From: Bacillus sp. Marseille-P3661
Lineage (GTDB): Bacteria > Bacillota > Bacilli > Bacillales > Bacillaceae_J
DNA length: 64,000 nucleotides
Assembly (NCBI RefSeq): GCF_900240995.1
Contig: NZ_LT965954.1
Location: 507,042 to 571,041, forward strand
Reading direction: 5' to 3'
Shown here: piece after piece, positions 6,116-23,233 of the stretch
How the letters are laid out: every line of letters starts with the position of its first letter
Position numbering within the stretch: the stretch's first letter is position 1
Notes under the pieces: generated by a model
Database searches by the model: none
The model's input: the letters and a program-made list of their open reading frames with translations, nothing else
What the model was told of the DNA's origin: nothing
Made by a program: the position numbers and the translations under genes

Positions 6116-6195
6116 AGCAACAAAATTATCTCCAACAATTTCTTAAACGTTGATACTGATACATAAGGAAGTAATCACATTTTGCGAGGAAAAAC

Positions 6196-6244
6196 AAAAA
6201 AGCTTGTAGATTTGTCTAGCATTAGTAGACCATATCTACAAGCT
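6196..6244 (-). terminator. Terminator of glutaredoxin gene
   Basis: AGCTTGTAGAT and ATCTACAAGCT form an 11-bp stem; on the minus strand it is followed by TTTTTTG. It lies 23 bases after the glutaredoxin stop. Confidence 0.8.
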
Positions 6245-6266: not shown

Positions 6267-6500
6267 TTATTTCTTCACATACTGCATTAGTTTTTCAGGA
6301 TCATAGCCTAGGACCCAGTTGCCATTGATCTTTGTCTGCGGTACGCCCATCTGGCCAGTTTCCTGTACTAGCTTTTGACCGGCAACAGGATCTAACTGCA
6401 CATTTACTTCTTTGTAGGTTAATCCTTGATCCTCAAGGAATTTTTTCATCATTGTGCAGTACGGTCAAGTATTTGTTGAATACACAGTAATATCGTTCAT
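6267..6500 (-). CDS. Glutaredoxin with in-frame UGA at catalytic Cys
   Basis: A 77-codon thioredoxin-fold glutaredoxin/NrdH-like frame. From the ATG at 6500, which has a strong AAAGGAGGG ribosome site, it reads MNDITVYSTNT, then TGA (6465-6467), then PYCTMMKKFLEDQG, and ends YVKK. The family motif is CPYC; here the first, nucleophilic Cys is encoded TGA. Every other codon is intact, including the cis-Pro region GQMGVPQT. Immediately downstream of the TGA a perfect 6-bp stem TCCTTG/CAAGGA with loop AGGAU (6423-6439) lies within the spacing described for bacterial SECIS elements. So it is either a selenoprotein (UPYC) or a gene with one recent TGC-to-TGA nonsense mutation. A start at the ATG at 6452 would lose the active site and has no ribosome site. 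Confidence 0.7.
6423..6439 (-). promoter_or_regulatory. SECIS-like hairpin after UGA
   Basis: A perfect 6-bp stem with a 5-nt loop containing GG. The loop starts about 31 nt after the UGA of the glutaredoxin. From memory, bacterial SECIS models require a stem-loop about 16-37 nt downstream with G among the first two loop bases; this fits. The bases also encode ordinary residues (FLEDQG), so chance cannot be excluded. Confidence 0.45.
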
Positions 6501-7071
6501 GCTGTGTTTACCCTCCTTTTTTTCCATTTACCCATAAAAGTATTTATCCCGGTAATGATGTTAAGTAACCTCGAAAAATAGTTACCGGAGACACCTTTGT
6601 TTTTCCCTTATTCGATAAAAATAACCATGGAAGAGTAGATCTTCTAAAACATTTGGCTGAAACCGAAATTTTGTCTTAACATCAGTCATATTATTTGTTC
6701 AAAAACTAACTTAAAATTGCCGCAAATCCGCTTATCCTATTCAATACACTAATTTGATTTGTTTCTTTATCAAACTGCATCGTACCACCGAATTTTTTCA
6801 TTCGAAACGTTCTATATATACTATTATTATGATATCCTTCATAATAATACCTCACCTTAATGTAGTGCTAAATTGATTTTATCTATGCGTAAGACAAGCT
6901 AACCGAAGTTATTATGCTCTAAGAGGGCAGCTTTGGTCATGATACGAATGTTGTCTTAACTATAAAATTAAAAAATTTTAGAACCAACGATGAAGTGACT
7001 GCCAACCTTACGGCAGTGTATTGACTTAATCTTTATATAAATTAATAATTTGTTTTATTTAAGGAGAATTT
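6501..7071. other. Intergenic stretch without a gene
   Basis: About 570 bases. The left edge carries the glutaredoxin ribosome site and presumably its promoter on the minus strand; the right edge carries AAGGAG for the next gene. I see no coherent frame or stable element in between. Confidence 0.35.
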
Positions 7072-17114: not shown

Positions 17115-18422
17115 TTAAAATCCAGCTAAATATTTAGCATATTCAATAGGTGTAACCATTAACTTTTGATATAATTGGTATTCTTTTAGGATTTTTAGAC
17201 TTTTACATGTATATGCTTTATTAATTTCTAACACCCAAATTCTTAAATCTTTATCAATTATAAAATCAATTGCTACATCCCCATAATGTCCGAAATACGT
17301 ATCAATCGCTTGACACGCTGCACAACACTGCTGCTTGACTAATTCCTCTAGCGACGTTACTTTAGATTTATCAATTGTTACAAGTTGTTCCAACGCTTCT
17401 TTTCCCATTAATAATTTTTCAACATATGCTAAATTCGTGACTATACTCCCTTTTTTAGCTTTACGGGCTACAAAACCTTGGACTTCCCATTGACCGGAAT
17501 TAACTTTTTGCATATATGCTCTGAAATCTATATGATGACCATTATGTTTGGTTGGTACTCCTTGCTGTATGAGATAGCTTTTATTTTGAATGATATTCTT
17601 TATTGTATGTTCAGTTTCCATGTTATTGTTTAATATCTTTACTTGGTTTTGGTTTTTCAATGATAGTTGTTGATCATTTATCTTCTCTATTTGGAAAATC
17701 CCCCTGCCATGTGAGCCATCAGCAGGTTTTAAATAAACGACATTGAAACGATCTAAAAAAGTTACAAGCTGATCATAGCTTTTATAACGTTCTGTATATG
17801 GTAACAAATCCTTAATTGTCGACTCTGTTGAAAGGTATTCCATCAATTCCTCTTTATTAAACAGATAAGAATTAAAAATTCTATCTCCCATGACTGAAAC
17901 GAGTGAGTCATAAAGTCTTCTTCTCAATCTAACGCGATTATAAATAACATTGGGATAAGGAAAGGTACCTTTAACCCATTCAGATGGGCCTCTCCCATTT
18001 GGATTGTAGTAATACCCATTAATGGTGTGTGTTTTAGTATTAATACTATTTGAAGCAGCAACAAAAAATAATCCTCTTATCGAATCATAATTTACTAATC
18101 TATTTTTATACGAATTTAATGTTTTATGCGTCAATTTCCTCTTATTTGCTGTCGGTATAAAGGCAATGACTGGACCAATCCGTAACACTCTGTTTTCCAT
18201 CACGATATCAAAAGGGATATTCTTGGGAATAGTAACTCTTGCAAAGAATTCTAGTGGGAGTCCAATAGACTCCTCAGATAACTTATCATTTGCTACGACC
18301 TTTAATTCGTGTTTTAATACTCCAAATTGTACGATTAATCGTTTAGATATTATATTATATTTATTAATTATATTCGGATGTAAATGGATCGTGTCACTCA
18401 TATCAAGCGTTTGTATATACAT
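17115..18422 (-). CDS. YheC/YheD-family ATP-grasp, spore-associated
   Basis: A 435-residue YheC/YheD-type protein. Residues 1-90 form the small N-terminal beta domain (LHPNIINKYNI, VMENRVLRIGPVIAF); 100-220 the family-specific region (INGYYYNP, VIYNRVRLRRRLYDSLV); 225-435 the ATP-grasp fold with glycine loop LKPADGSHGRG (231-241), HIDFRAY (297-303) and the metal/ATP segment DVAIDFII...WVLEIN (382-401). B. subtilis YheC and YheD are spore coat-associated under sigma-K control with unknown reaction; ATP-grasp enzymes usually join a carboxylate to an amine. It is divergent from two paralogs to the right. A CATATAGTA sigma-K-like -10 lies at 18466-18474. Confidence 0.88.
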   Translation of the reverse strand: MYIQTLDMSDTIHLHPNIINKYNIISKRLIVQFGVLKHELKVVANDKLSEESIGLPLEFFARVTIPKNIPFDIVMENRVLRIGPVIAFIPTANKRKLTHKTLNSYKNRLVNYDSIRGLFFVAASNSINTKTHTINGYYYNPNGRGPSEWVKGTFPYPNVIYNRVRLRRRLYDSLVSVMGDRIFNSYLFNKEELMEYLSTESTIKDLLPYTERYKSYDQLVTFLDRFNVVYLKPADGSHGRGIFQIEKINDQQLSLKNQNQVKILNNNMETEHTIKNIIQNKSYLIQQGVPTKHNGHHIDFRAYMQKVNSGQWEVQGFVARKAKKGSIVTNLAYVEKLLMGKEALEQLVTIDKSKVTSLEELVKQQCCAACQAIDTYFGHYGDVAIDFIIDKDLRIWVLEINKAYTCKSLKILKEYQLYQKLMVTPIEYAKYLAGF

Positions 18423-18632
18423 TCATACACTACTTCCTTCCGATTAGATAAACAGTCTTATAGTTTACTATATGAAGAACGCTTTAAGATTGAATGTACG
18501 AAACTCACATAAATCTTAAATTATTGCTCCATTTATGTAAAAATTCCCCACTCTAATCAAAAAAGTATTATACAAATTAAGTACCCTCTACATAAACTGT
18601 TATAAGTATTATTCTTAATTGGAGATGATGAA

Positions 18633-19976
18633 GTGACTAATGTATTAGCGATCGTATCCATACATGATGAACAAAATGTTATTGCCTTTCATCCGGAACA
18701 AAAAAATGGTATTGAATTGATGAAAGTATCTCAAGGTACTGTTCAATTTGGGCAAGCAATATGCAAGGTTTATTACAAACTAGATCCTAATATAAAGATA
18801 AATGAAATGGGCATATCAATTAATCTTATTAATAGTCTTAAAATACCAACTACACTAGAATATGAAATACGATACGACCAACATCAAAATATCCTAAAAG
18901 TGGGTCCTTGTATTGGAATTCTAGCTTCCAAAACGAATGGAAAGCTTAAAAGAAAACTTAATGTTTTAAGAAGATATTTGAGGCAATACAGTGAAATTAA
19001 TGGTTGTATAATTGTTTTTTCATTAGAAGGTATTGATTTTAATTCAAAAAAAATCAATGGTTTTATGTACAAACCCGATACTAAGAGTTGGAAAAGGGGG
19101 ATCTTTTTATTTCCGGCAGCTGTTTTAAGAAGACGAATTTCACTTTCAAAGGAAAAAAGCAGGGCTTTTAGATCAGCTTTTGGGCATTGTTATATCAATA
19201 ACAAAACTTTCAATAAATGGGAGATGTACCAATGGTTGAGTACAAACGAAACTGTAAATTGTTATTTACCACCAACTCTGCTTTATCAACATCCAATGGA
19301 CTTAATCCAATTTATAAGTACTTATAACTGTGTTTATTTAAAGCCACTAACAGGGATGATGGGACGACAAATTATAAAGGTAACAAAAAAAGATGATTCT
19401 TATGAAGTTAGCACCTCTAAAAATAAAAAGTTACATTTACATTCAACAAATGAATTAATGGATTACTGCAAACAATCGTTAATCCCAAACAAGTATATTA
19501 TTCAAAAAGCGCTCGATCTTACTATTATTGAAGACCACATGATCGATTTTCGCGTAGTAATAATAAAAAACAAAGTTGGAGATTGGGAATACGTTGGTTC
19601 GATCGCACGGTATGGCACCTTTAAGGGAATTGTAAGTAATTACGCAGCTGGAGGGAAATTATATAATCCACAACAATTATTACAGCTTGCTTTTAATATC
19701 TCTGAGGAGGAAGCAAGTAATCTTGAAAATCAAATGGCTATTGTAGCCATAAAGGCTGCCGCCGAACTCGAAAAATACGATATTCAATTTCACAAGTATG
19801 GGGTTGACATAGCACTCGATATTAATAGACAAATTTGGCTAATTGAAATGAACCATCGGTATCTTAGCGATTCTGTTTTTAAATTAATTGGTCAACCCCA
19901 GAAAGATATGACTTTAAAATTAAATACAATGTTATTCGCAAAATATATTGCAGGGTTTGCAAATGAAAATGGATAA
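18633..19976 (+). CDS. YheC/YheD-family ATP-grasp paralog
   Basis: 447 residues with the same plan as the minus-strand paralog: N-terminal beta domain ending VGPCIGILASK (90-100), INGFMYKP, FPAAVLRRRIS, glycine loop LKPLTGMMGRQ (236-246), MIDFRVVIIKN (303-313), SNYAAGGKL and VDIALDI...WLIEMNHRY (391-410). GTG start after GGAGATGATGAA. Twelve bases separate it from the next paralog, so both are one operon. The last Glu and Asn of the metal site are conserved, so it should be active. Confidence 0.87.
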   Translation: MTNVLAIVSIHDEQNVIAFHPEQKNGIELMKVSQGTVQFGQAICKVYYKLDPNIKINEMGISINLINSLKIPTTLEYEIRYDQHQNILKVGPCIGILASKTNGKLKRKLNVLRRYLRQYSEINGCIIVFSLEGIDFNSKKINGFMYKPDTKSWKRGIFLFPAAVLRRRISLSKEKSRAFRSAFGHCYINNKTFNKWEMYQWLSTNETVNCYLPPTLLYQHPMDLIQFISTYNCVYLKPLTGMMGRQIIKVTKKDDSYEVSTSKNKKLHLHSTNELMDYCKQSLIPNKYIIQKALDLTIIEDHMIDFRVVIIKNKVGDWEYVGSIARYGTFKGIVSNYAAGGKLYNPQQLLQLAFNISEEEASNLENQMAIVAIKAAAELEKYDIQFHKYGVDIALDINRQIWLIEMNHRYLSDSVFKLIGQPQKDMTLKLNTMLFAKYIAGFANENG

Positions 19977-19988
19977 AGTGGTGAGATC

Positions 19989-21311
19989 ATGAGAAGGACA
20001 TTTATTATTGAAAAAAATGATAAGACAAGAAACTGTATAACTGTTCACCCTGCAATTGTACAAGAACTTCAATTATATAACATTGAAAATCCCGTTCTTA
20101 AGTTCGGAACCCAGCAAACAAAAGTAATTATAAAAACATCGCGACAATTAAATGAAAACAACTGGCTTTTATCAACCAATCTTATTAATAAACTCCATAT
20201 TCCCTTAAGCCCTACTTATGAAATTACGATCCTTAATAATGAAATTAATATTGGACCATTTATAGGAATCCTAATTGGAAACTCTGATGAAGAGTTGAAA
20301 AAAAGACTCCCACATCTATTAGATTATGTTTATAGTTATCCTAAAATAAATGGCATGATTGTTACATTCTCTGCGGAACAAATTCAACCGTCCAAACCGT
20401 TAATCAATGGTTATTTCTACGACCATATTGATAAACTTTGGAAACAAGGAAAATTTCACTATCCATCAGCCATATTACTTCGAACTATATTAACACCAAC
20501 ACGGAGAAAACTCCTTCAAAAAGCAGTTGGAAATCGCATCATCAATAGTCATGTATATAATAAATGGGAATGTTATCAAGCCTTCGCTCCTCTTAAAGAG
20601 TATATACCAAATACTTATCTATATAGTGAACCCACTCAAATCTTCAGTTTATTAAAACAATACAACTCTTTATATATTAAACCCATAAACTCATATGGTG
20701 GCCAAAAAATCTGTAAAGTTTTATTGGATGATAATCAAGATATTAAACTTGTTATTAACAAAAAACATTCTAATAAAACCATAACTTTCAACACTAAGGA
20801 TCGAGCGATAAGGTATTTTCGCCGTTTATTAATAAAGGACAAATGGATTTTACAGGAACCCATTAATATGATCTCTTCTAATGATTGTCTTATTGACTTT
20901 AGATGTATTGTCATAAAAGGAAAAAATGGGAAATGGGGTATTGCCGGTATTATTGGAAGGTATGGTCCCCCTAGTAGTATTGTAAGCAATATACATGCCG
21001 GTGGGCGAGCGGAGATGGGAATGAAGACATTAATGAAAACCCTAAAATTTACTAAGCAGGAATCAATTCTACAATTAAGAAAAATATCACGTCTTGCTCT
21101 TGAAGCCGTTCAACTTCTCGAAGCTCGTGGTGGACATTTTGGAACTACCGGTGTTGATATAGGTATGGATAAAAACCGAAATCTATGGTTAATCGAGGTG
21201 AATCATCGTTTCCCTGCACATAATATTGCATTAGATGCAGGAAATAGTAAACTATATTACCGCATCACTAAGAAAATCATGGTTCACTTAAAAGAACTTG
21301 CTGGATTTTAA
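19989..21311 (+). CDS. YheC/YheD-family ATP-grasp paralog
   Basis: 440 residues, third paralog in the cluster. INIGPFIGILIGN ends the N-terminal domain; YLYSEP, IKPINSYGGQK (glycine loop), LIDFRCIVIKG, SNIHAGGRAEMG, VDIGMD...LWLIEVNHRFP mark the ATP-grasp part. The linker and glycine loop differ from the neighbour (YGGQ versus MMGR), which suggests different acceptors. ATG after GTGGTGAG. The downstream flank is a hairpin-repeat fragment and then decayed group II introns, so any original third operon gene could have been lost there. Confidence 0.87.
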   Translation: MRRTFIIEKNDKTRNCITVHPAIVQELQLYNIENPVLKFGTQQTKVIIKTSRQLNENNWLLSTNLINKLHIPLSPTYEITILNNEINIGPFIGILIGNSDEELKKRLPHLLDYVYSYPKINGMIVTFSAEQIQPSKPLINGYFYDHIDKLWKQGKFHYPSAILLRTILTPTRRKLLQKAVGNRIINSHVYNKWECYQAFAPLKEYIPNTYLYSEPTQIFSLLKQYNSLYIKPINSYGGQKICKVLLDDNQDIKLVINKKHSNKTITFNTKDRAIRYFRRLLIKDKWILQEPINMISSNDCLIDFRCIVIKGKNGKWGIAGIIGRYGPPSSIVSNIHAGGRAEMGMKTLMKTLKFTKQESILQLRKISRLALEAVQLLEARGGHFGTTGVDIGMDKNRNLWLIEVNHRFPAHNIALDAGNSKLYYRITKKIMVHLKELAGF

Positions 21312-21419: not shown

Positions 21420-23233
21420 ATCGAGTAGGAGGCACGGTGCCGTGCCTACCTTTCATACCACCGTAGATACCGTTCAGTATACGGCGGTTCGAGAGTTTTA
21501 TGAAATCTCATTAAGTAAAGATTTTAAGCCTAAGTCTTGCCAACATTGATTATTTAAAGCGGAATCCATAATAGGACTTTTGGACATACGCCAATAACCC
21601 TTACGGGTGTTGGCGTTTTTTCCATGCTTCCTCTTTAAAAATTCCAAGTTTCATTAGGTTTCGGTATTTAAATTTTGACCTTTTTCCATTCCTTCCAACG
21701 ACATGCTCTTAGTCTATGTCTAATACTGCCATCGATTCTGGAAGAGTACTTCTTGATATCACCGATCTTGAAGTAATTCCCCATCCTTGGATTAATTCAT
21801 TAATCTTTCGAATACGATGTTCCATACTTACTCACCAAATTCGATTTGTGAGTTTCTTAATTTTCTCCTCAAACCTTAACTTCGATTTCATTGGCACGTA
21901 TATTCTTGTTTTCTTTCGGTAAAAACTCATGCCTAAGAATACACGTACGCTCAGCTTTCCCACAGCGCTTTTCTCCTCATTTACTTTAAGGCTTTGTTAA
22001 TATGCCTTAAGGCAGAATACCTTTCAGATTTGTAGAACTTTCCATAGTAATTATTCCAGCCTCGAATATTAGAGTTGAACATATTGGACAGGTCGAAAAT
22101 ATATCTTTATCCGCTTTTAGTTGAAGTTTCCAATTTCTTACCTTTTGTCGAATTGATCTCTTTGATTTACTGCTGATGGCATGGGGATGTTCACAAAATG
22201 TTTACCCCATCTATTTTTTGAGAGCCTTGGTCTGAACGTGTACCCTAGAAAATTAAAAGTTATGTTTTCATTCTTTCCTTTTCTATCTGCATCCTTACAG
22301 TATACAATTTTTGTTTTGGTTAGATGGAGCTCAAGTTTACATTCGTTCAATCTCTTATTTAGTGATGTGACTTCTAGTACCTGAATTGCACTTTTCCCGG
22401 GTCTATATCCATAGGAGTCCTCATGAAAGAAAGAGTCCACTAATGGTTCCAAACATAATTTAACTACCATTTGTACAACTCTATCTCCTACTGTTGGTAT
22501 TCCTAGTGTTCTAGTACCCCCAGTCTTCTTAGGTATTTCTACAGCTTTAACTGCTGGTGGAAAATAACTTCCCGAAGACATTCGGTTCCACAGTTTGTAG
22601 AGATTATCTTTTAAGTTTAATTCATACGCTAGTATTGATTCTTCATCAATTCCGGCTACCCTTTTGTTTGCTTTAACTCTCAAAAAGGCTTCATATACTT
22701 TGTTCTTAGATATCTGATATGGCTTTGTTTTATTCATAAGTTCCTCCCATTTTTATGGTTGACTTGTTTATAAAACTGACTAACATAACCCCTTTGCTCC
22801 ACCTCCGTTAGGAGGTTTCATTACTACTACGGGTTATTCCGCCCCTATACATGGTATTGGTACTCTGATTCTCTTGGGATCTCCACTTGAAATCTCTCCC
22901 TTGGCATCCTTGTCGTAGGTTCCCACGTTCCACACAAAAGCCTGTGTTAAGTTCACGCCGCCTTTATACCGGTCACAGAACGGACAGTAAACAGGTTTCC
23001 TCCGAACTTATCCTGAGTTAACGACTCCCCTTCAGTTTTGATGAAACCTCTACATTTCGATACTTTCTCAGCGGTTCAATGGTTTTCGTCTCCTTAACAC
23101 GTACCTGACAGAGTCTAGCTCTACCCTTTCCCTAACGCTCAATACCATAGCTTTTGACCATAAGGCACCATAGGGCGGTTTAGAATAGCTCCTAAGTGTG
23201 CTTACGCACACTTAGGTAGCTTTCGTGGCACAC
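21420..23233 (-). mobile_element. Group II intron (inner), with decayed maturase
   Basis: On the minus strand the intron starts GTGTGCCACGAAAG at 23233 and has about 500 bases of domain I-III sequence before its ORF. It ends with a domain V-like hairpin (GAACCGCCGTATAC ... GTATCTACGGTGG, about 21455-21495) and a domain VI hairpin (AGGCACGGCACCGTGCCT), finishing CCTACTCGAT at 21420. It lies inside the YADD codons of another intron's reverse transcriptase. Its own maturase gene is deleted internally and frameshifted, so it cannot move on its own. Confidence 0.75.
21560..22737 (-). pseudogene. ltrA: Group II intron reverse transcriptase/maturase, broken
   Basis: The frame starts MNKTKPYQISKNKVYEAFLR, runs through VDEESILAYE, AVEIPKKTGGTRTLGIPT and SYGYRPGKSAIQVLEVT, then jumps directly to LNKRLNECKLELHLTKTKI, so the palm with the catalytic YADD box (roughly 110 residues) is deleted. 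After FLGYTFRPRLSKNRWGKHFV a frameshift near 22175 ends the open frame. The maturase X region (WKLQLKADKD, NIRGWNNYYGKFY, FYRKKTRIYVPMKSKLRF, RACRWKEWKK) continues in other frames to about 21560. The ribosome site is ATGGGAGGAACTT. Confidence 0.85.

Follow-up and report, generated by a model that had tools for sequence, protein, structure and literature searches.

Candidate selenocysteine-containing glutaredoxins with a conserved SECIS-like hairpin in Bacillus sp. Marseille-P3661 and related Bacillaceae

Glutaredoxins with selenocysteine (Sec) in a UxxC active site are known from relatively few bacteria, Geobacter and Clostridium oremlandii among them (PMC13188914). Geobacter, Alkaliphilus and Moorella are the hosts named in a 2006 survey, which credits the Bacillales with only three selenoproteins (PMC1794560). 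The proteins of Geobacter sulfurreducens (WP_010943784.1), Clostridium/Alkaliphilus oremlandii, Alkaliphilus metalliredigenes and Moorella are PF00462 members with Sec in the first position of UxxC (PMC13188914, PMC1794560), as is the predicted product of the Bacillus sp. Marseille-P3661 gene analysed here. The UXX-star families (NF041212, NF041114, NF041211, NF047338) are likewise short and glutaredoxin-like, with Sec first in the active site. No report of a Sec-glutaredoxin from the Bacillaceae (Neobacillus, Mesobacillus) was found in the open literature, which is without most subscription journals.

The window, meaning the whole 64,000-nucleotide stretch of DNA that was analysed, carries the gene on the minus strand at 6267..6500. 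It runs from an ATG at 6500 to a TAA at 6269–6267 and, when TGA is translated as U, has 77 codons with a predicted UPYC active site. The frame is MNDITVYSTNT-(TGA)-PYCTMMKKFLEDQGLTYKEVNVQ...YVKK, in which the sole irregularity is the TGA at codon 12 (6467–6465), where the first, nucleophilic Cys would stand. Direct reading of the minus strand also gives a strong ribosome binding site, AAGGAGGG, at 6518–6511 and an intrinsic terminator of the gene's own at 6194..6244, with an 11 bp perfect stem (AGCTTGTAGAT/ATCTACAAGCT, 6244–6234/6211–6201) followed by TTTTTT. This terminator is absent from the output of the consensus terminator scan, which has a loop limit of 8 nt. The earlier note had described an otherwise intact glutaredoxin gene with both of these signals, and the description holds.

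With Cys replacing the TGA, the product scores 65.5 bits against PF00462, where the gathering cut-off is 22.9, and is therefore a member of the glutaredoxin family. It also matches the PDB glutaredoxins 7c10 (E 2.4e-12) and 1fov (E 2.4e-8). A single-sequence AlphaFold2 model (pLDDT 79) has a thioredoxin-like order, with residue 12 directly preceding helix 13–24, which is the site of the catalytic nucleophile in glutaredoxins. Only one other match, at 34%, was found in the genome. The best NCBIfam match is GlrX_YruB (TIGR02196), which aligns over 72 of 74 positions and scores 83.4 bits, narrowly under the cut-off of 88.55. The scores against the UXX-star models are well below their cut-offs (42.9 bits against 66, 29.9 against 97, 29.2 against 100 and 20.3 against 72). 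The gene falls short of the cut-off of every NCBIfam selenoprotein model, so annotation would probably begin it at Met17 and lose the active site.

The codon 12 UGA is common to 18 loci of the main clade, from Mesobacillus, Neobacillus, Bacillus dakarensis, B. suaedaesalsae and others, which without the copy in genome G386 comprise 16 distinct sequences. Most of these loci have 78–86% protein identity and the remainder of the frame is intact. Cys homologues have TGT or TGC at this codon, so that the in-frame UGA aligns with their catalytic Cys, as is expected of a bacterial selenoprotein gene. In a scan of 397 genomes of the order, TGA was found at codon 12 of the glutaredoxin family in 13, and 11 of these have an intact gene with at least 78% identity to the query. 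Six carriers, every one of them selB-positive, come from the contig collection: Neobacillus paridis, Neobacillus terrae, Bacillus suaedaesalsae, Mesobacillus subterraneus MITOT1, Bacillus dakarensis and a Bacillota MAG. The two sets overlap, since L057 (B. suaedaesalsae) and L027 (G009) are apparently the same genome. No TGA form was found outside the order at E <= 1e-30 among 399 genomes across the class. The nearest matches in the plasmid collection have only 58–67% identity, therefore the Sec form is on no plasmid in the collection searched.

Two of the copies differ from the rest. In the selA-positive genome G386 the gene (L139) has a degraded 5' end, having lost the start codon and the first strand, and is an apparent pseudogene. 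The copy in G037 (L138, 1479–1719) is divergent, with UPHC and 51% identity; its UGA is followed, equally far downstream, by a hairpin of its own, and it possibly represents another clade.

The genome of Marseille-P3661 (5.37 Mb, 99.8% complete) has what decoding UGA as Sec would require. The earlier note had made this reading depend on selA, selB, selC and selD, and the tRNA-Sec (anticodon UCA), SelA (570 bits) and SelB (374 bits) all score above their curated cut-offs. The selD gene is also present and carries its own in-frame UGA in the usual place (AG-U-GCKIG), and MnmH (L021, named from its sequence) is also encoded. Single in-frame TGA codons at the canonical Sec positions are present in fdhA (G000:C2:438355-440373; ...NRT-U-HAPSVAGL, with a GGUCU-loop hairpin) and in the gene of an FdnG-like formate dehydrogenase of the Tat-signal type (G000:C6:250697-253507). 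A SelW-like (Rdx) gene on the minus strand between selA and selD (L020; G000:C1:2294191-2294403) has a single in-frame TGA (CMQU), with a CUGCGA-GUU-UCGCAG hairpin after it, and is likely to encode a further selenoprotein. In selD and fdhA, as in the SelW-like gene, the UGA is followed by a hairpin with a small, G-bearing loop. Counting the glutaredoxin, at least five selenoproteins are predicted in this genome, as sampled by family search. A tandem of Sec-glutaredoxin and Sec-MsrA, as in Clostridium oremlandii, is unsupported, as the sole MsrA match in the genome is without an internal stop.

The same evidence bears on whether the UGA is read as Cys by a variant tRNA-Cys, or as Trp through a suppressor or a change of code. 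Such a reading would fit the presence of Cys at position 12 in every non-UGA homologue. It is nevertheless highly improbable, given the canonical tRNA-Sec, SelA, SelB and SelD, the SECIS-like hairpin, and the standard Sec positions in FdhA and SelD. Since TGA closes 3 of the 39 long frames in the window, a wholesale change of code is also unlikely.

Within the order, selA was found in 181 of the 397 genomes, as the earlier note had anticipated for some Bacillus relatives, therefore Sec in a relative of Bacillus is not itself unusual. The unusual feature is the Sec-glutaredoxin, rather than the machinery. All 13 of the TGA genomes are selA-positive. These come from five families, with 9 of the 13 from one genus, and so do not represent 13 independent co-occurrences. 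Among 14 controls, the selA search was above its cut-off only in E. coli, so selA serves as a specific marker.

The putative bacterial SECIS is a hairpin at 6423..6439 on the minus strand, with a perfect 6 bp stem (UCCUUG/CAAGGA) and an AGGAU loop. The stem begins at nucleotide 26 past the UGA, which agrees with the earlier note's stem and GG-containing loop. It therefore has the stem-loop soon after the UGA, with a G in the apical loop, of a bacterial selenoprotein gene at the sequence level. The folding energy of the segment is −7.6 kcal/mol (z = −2.35). The sequence that follows the UGA in the Sec forms is TTCCTTGAGGnTCAAGGATTA. Numbering the U of UGA as 1, the six pairs (29–34 with 40–45) and the G at loop position 2 are found in all 18 Sec loci. 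The stem pairs are intact in all 10 distinct sequences; among these is the divergent G037 copy, where a G-C pair has become U-G and pairing is retained. The near-invariance of the stem leaves little covariation: a single two-sided change and a single one-sided one, a level reached by 52 of 500 shuffles and not significant alone. A scan of the gene with Rfam gave no SECIS match; its weak snoRNA matches are far under the gathering scores and are taken as chance.

It is similarly improbable that this structure is a coincidence of coding or a terminator for the opposite strand, rather than a SECIS. On the plus strand it reads TCCTTGATCCTCAAGGA followed by ATTTTTTC, which the terminator scan flagged as terminator-like, and hairpins with a GG loop at a suitable distance follow 20 of the 2406 TGA triplets in the window by chance (0.8%). 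At this chance rate the hairpin alone is modest evidence, and it is the conservation that counts. In other carriers the T run is interrupted (sense strand AAACAATTCC or AAAGAATTCC), yet the stem and the loop G are retained. The signal is also specific to the Sec forms: in contrast to its presence throughout these, the hairpin with its loop G occurs in 1 of 95 Cys loci, L063 from Niallia, which is nested in the Sec clade.

Codons 19–31 (6408..6446, minus strand), which span the hairpin, have frozen synonymous sites among the Sec forms. Synonymous identity, being the use of the same codon in pairs of Sec forms with the same amino acid, is 0.99 here as against 0.57 over the remaining codons (permutation p ~5e-6), and 0.98 as against 0.54 once the sequences are thinned to less than 90% identity. 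Codons 21–27 are 100% frozen in the Sec forms and 40% in the Cys homologues. This freezing is, on these alignments, stronger evidence for the putative SECIS than is covariation, and codon use across the Sec forms establishes that the predicted hairpin is under selection.

The least probable alternative is a recent TGC/TGT-to-TGA nonsense mutation, leaving a fresh pseudogene or a 61-residue fragment translated from the ATG at 6452: the 61-codon frame from Met17 and the degraded 5' end of the G386 homologue would suit it, but a private mutation cannot explain TGA in 18 loci of several genera with the frame otherwise intact, nor would a fragment without the active site be expected to freeze synonymous sites past the UGA. 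Because TGA is conserved in related genera, both a sequencing error at 6466, the middle base of the codon, and the single recent mutation that the earlier note had offered as a competing explanation are ruled out. The Sec reading that the note favoured is instead supported by this conservation and by the sel machinery.

The gene therefore very probably encodes a real selenium enzyme, as judged by comparison of genomes. There is little doubt that it specifies a functional Sec-containing glutaredoxin with a UPYC active site, in which UGA12 would be decoded through tRNA-Sec, SelB and the hairpin. Given the conserved machinery, signal and codon, SelB would recognise the hairpin just 3' of the UGA and carry the tRNA-Sec that decodes it, so incorporating selenium into the glutaredoxin. 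By analogy with the glutaredoxin family, Sec12 at the N-terminus of helix 1 would be the nucleophile that attacks disulfides or oxidised thiols, and Cys15 would resolve the selenenylsulfide, giving the protein a redox role. Bacilli are mostly without glutathione and mostly use bacillithiol, therefore bacillithiol or thioredoxin reductase is a plausible reductant in vivo.

No conserved gene neighbourhood was found: on clustering, the flanking ORFs differ between almost all genera, and a function cannot be inferred from an operon. Elsewhere in the window, three genes of the ATP-grasp, YheC/YheD-like spore-coat type, named from their sequences, are clustered at 17115–21311. A short reverse-transcriptase-like ORF at 22138–22737 on the minus strand resembles a group II intron maturase that has lost an internal segment, and is probably a decayed element.

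In a tree of 96 glutaredoxin sequences, from which the Geobacter, Alkaliphilus and Moorella Sec proteins were left out, many of the forks are unresolved because there are only 76 columns. All 17 Sec rows group together, two Cys rows lie inside this group, and the tree requires three label changes. This is most simply fitted by one Cys-to-Sec gain and two losses. The G037 copy sits on a long branch, and its placement is uncertain. The nested Cys rows are L026 (G071), which has the loop ATTCT without GG and in whose genome searches for selA and selB found neither, and L063 (Niallia endozanthoxylica), which has TGT, an intact hairpin and selB. The latter is apparently in the state expected just after reversion to Cys. 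Genomes of genus g64 carry, beside the Sec gene, a Cys paralogue that is approximately 70% identical. It is rather likely that this represents a separate origin of Sec-glutaredoxins inside the CPYC family of the Bacilli, caught while being lost through the Niallia and G071 reversions. If so, Niallia, G071 and g64 form a natural series on what Sec buys the spore-forming Bacillaceae.

The Marseille-P3661-type genes should therefore be seen as a new clade of the already known Sec-glutaredoxins. They differ from those of Geobacter, Alkaliphilus and Moorella in belonging to a different subfamily, with the CPYC glutaredoxins of the Bacilli as nearest kin, and in having Bacillaceae as hosts. This adds a conserved selenoprotein clade in the spore-forming Bacillaceae, in which Sec/Cys paralogue pairs and revertants at differing stages of SECIS decay make the retention and loss of Sec testable in culturable organisms. 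The description of the best-matching family, GlrX_YruB, makes no mention of Sec. In contrast to the UXX-star families, the gene of Marseille-P3661 retains the resolving Cys, in UPYC.
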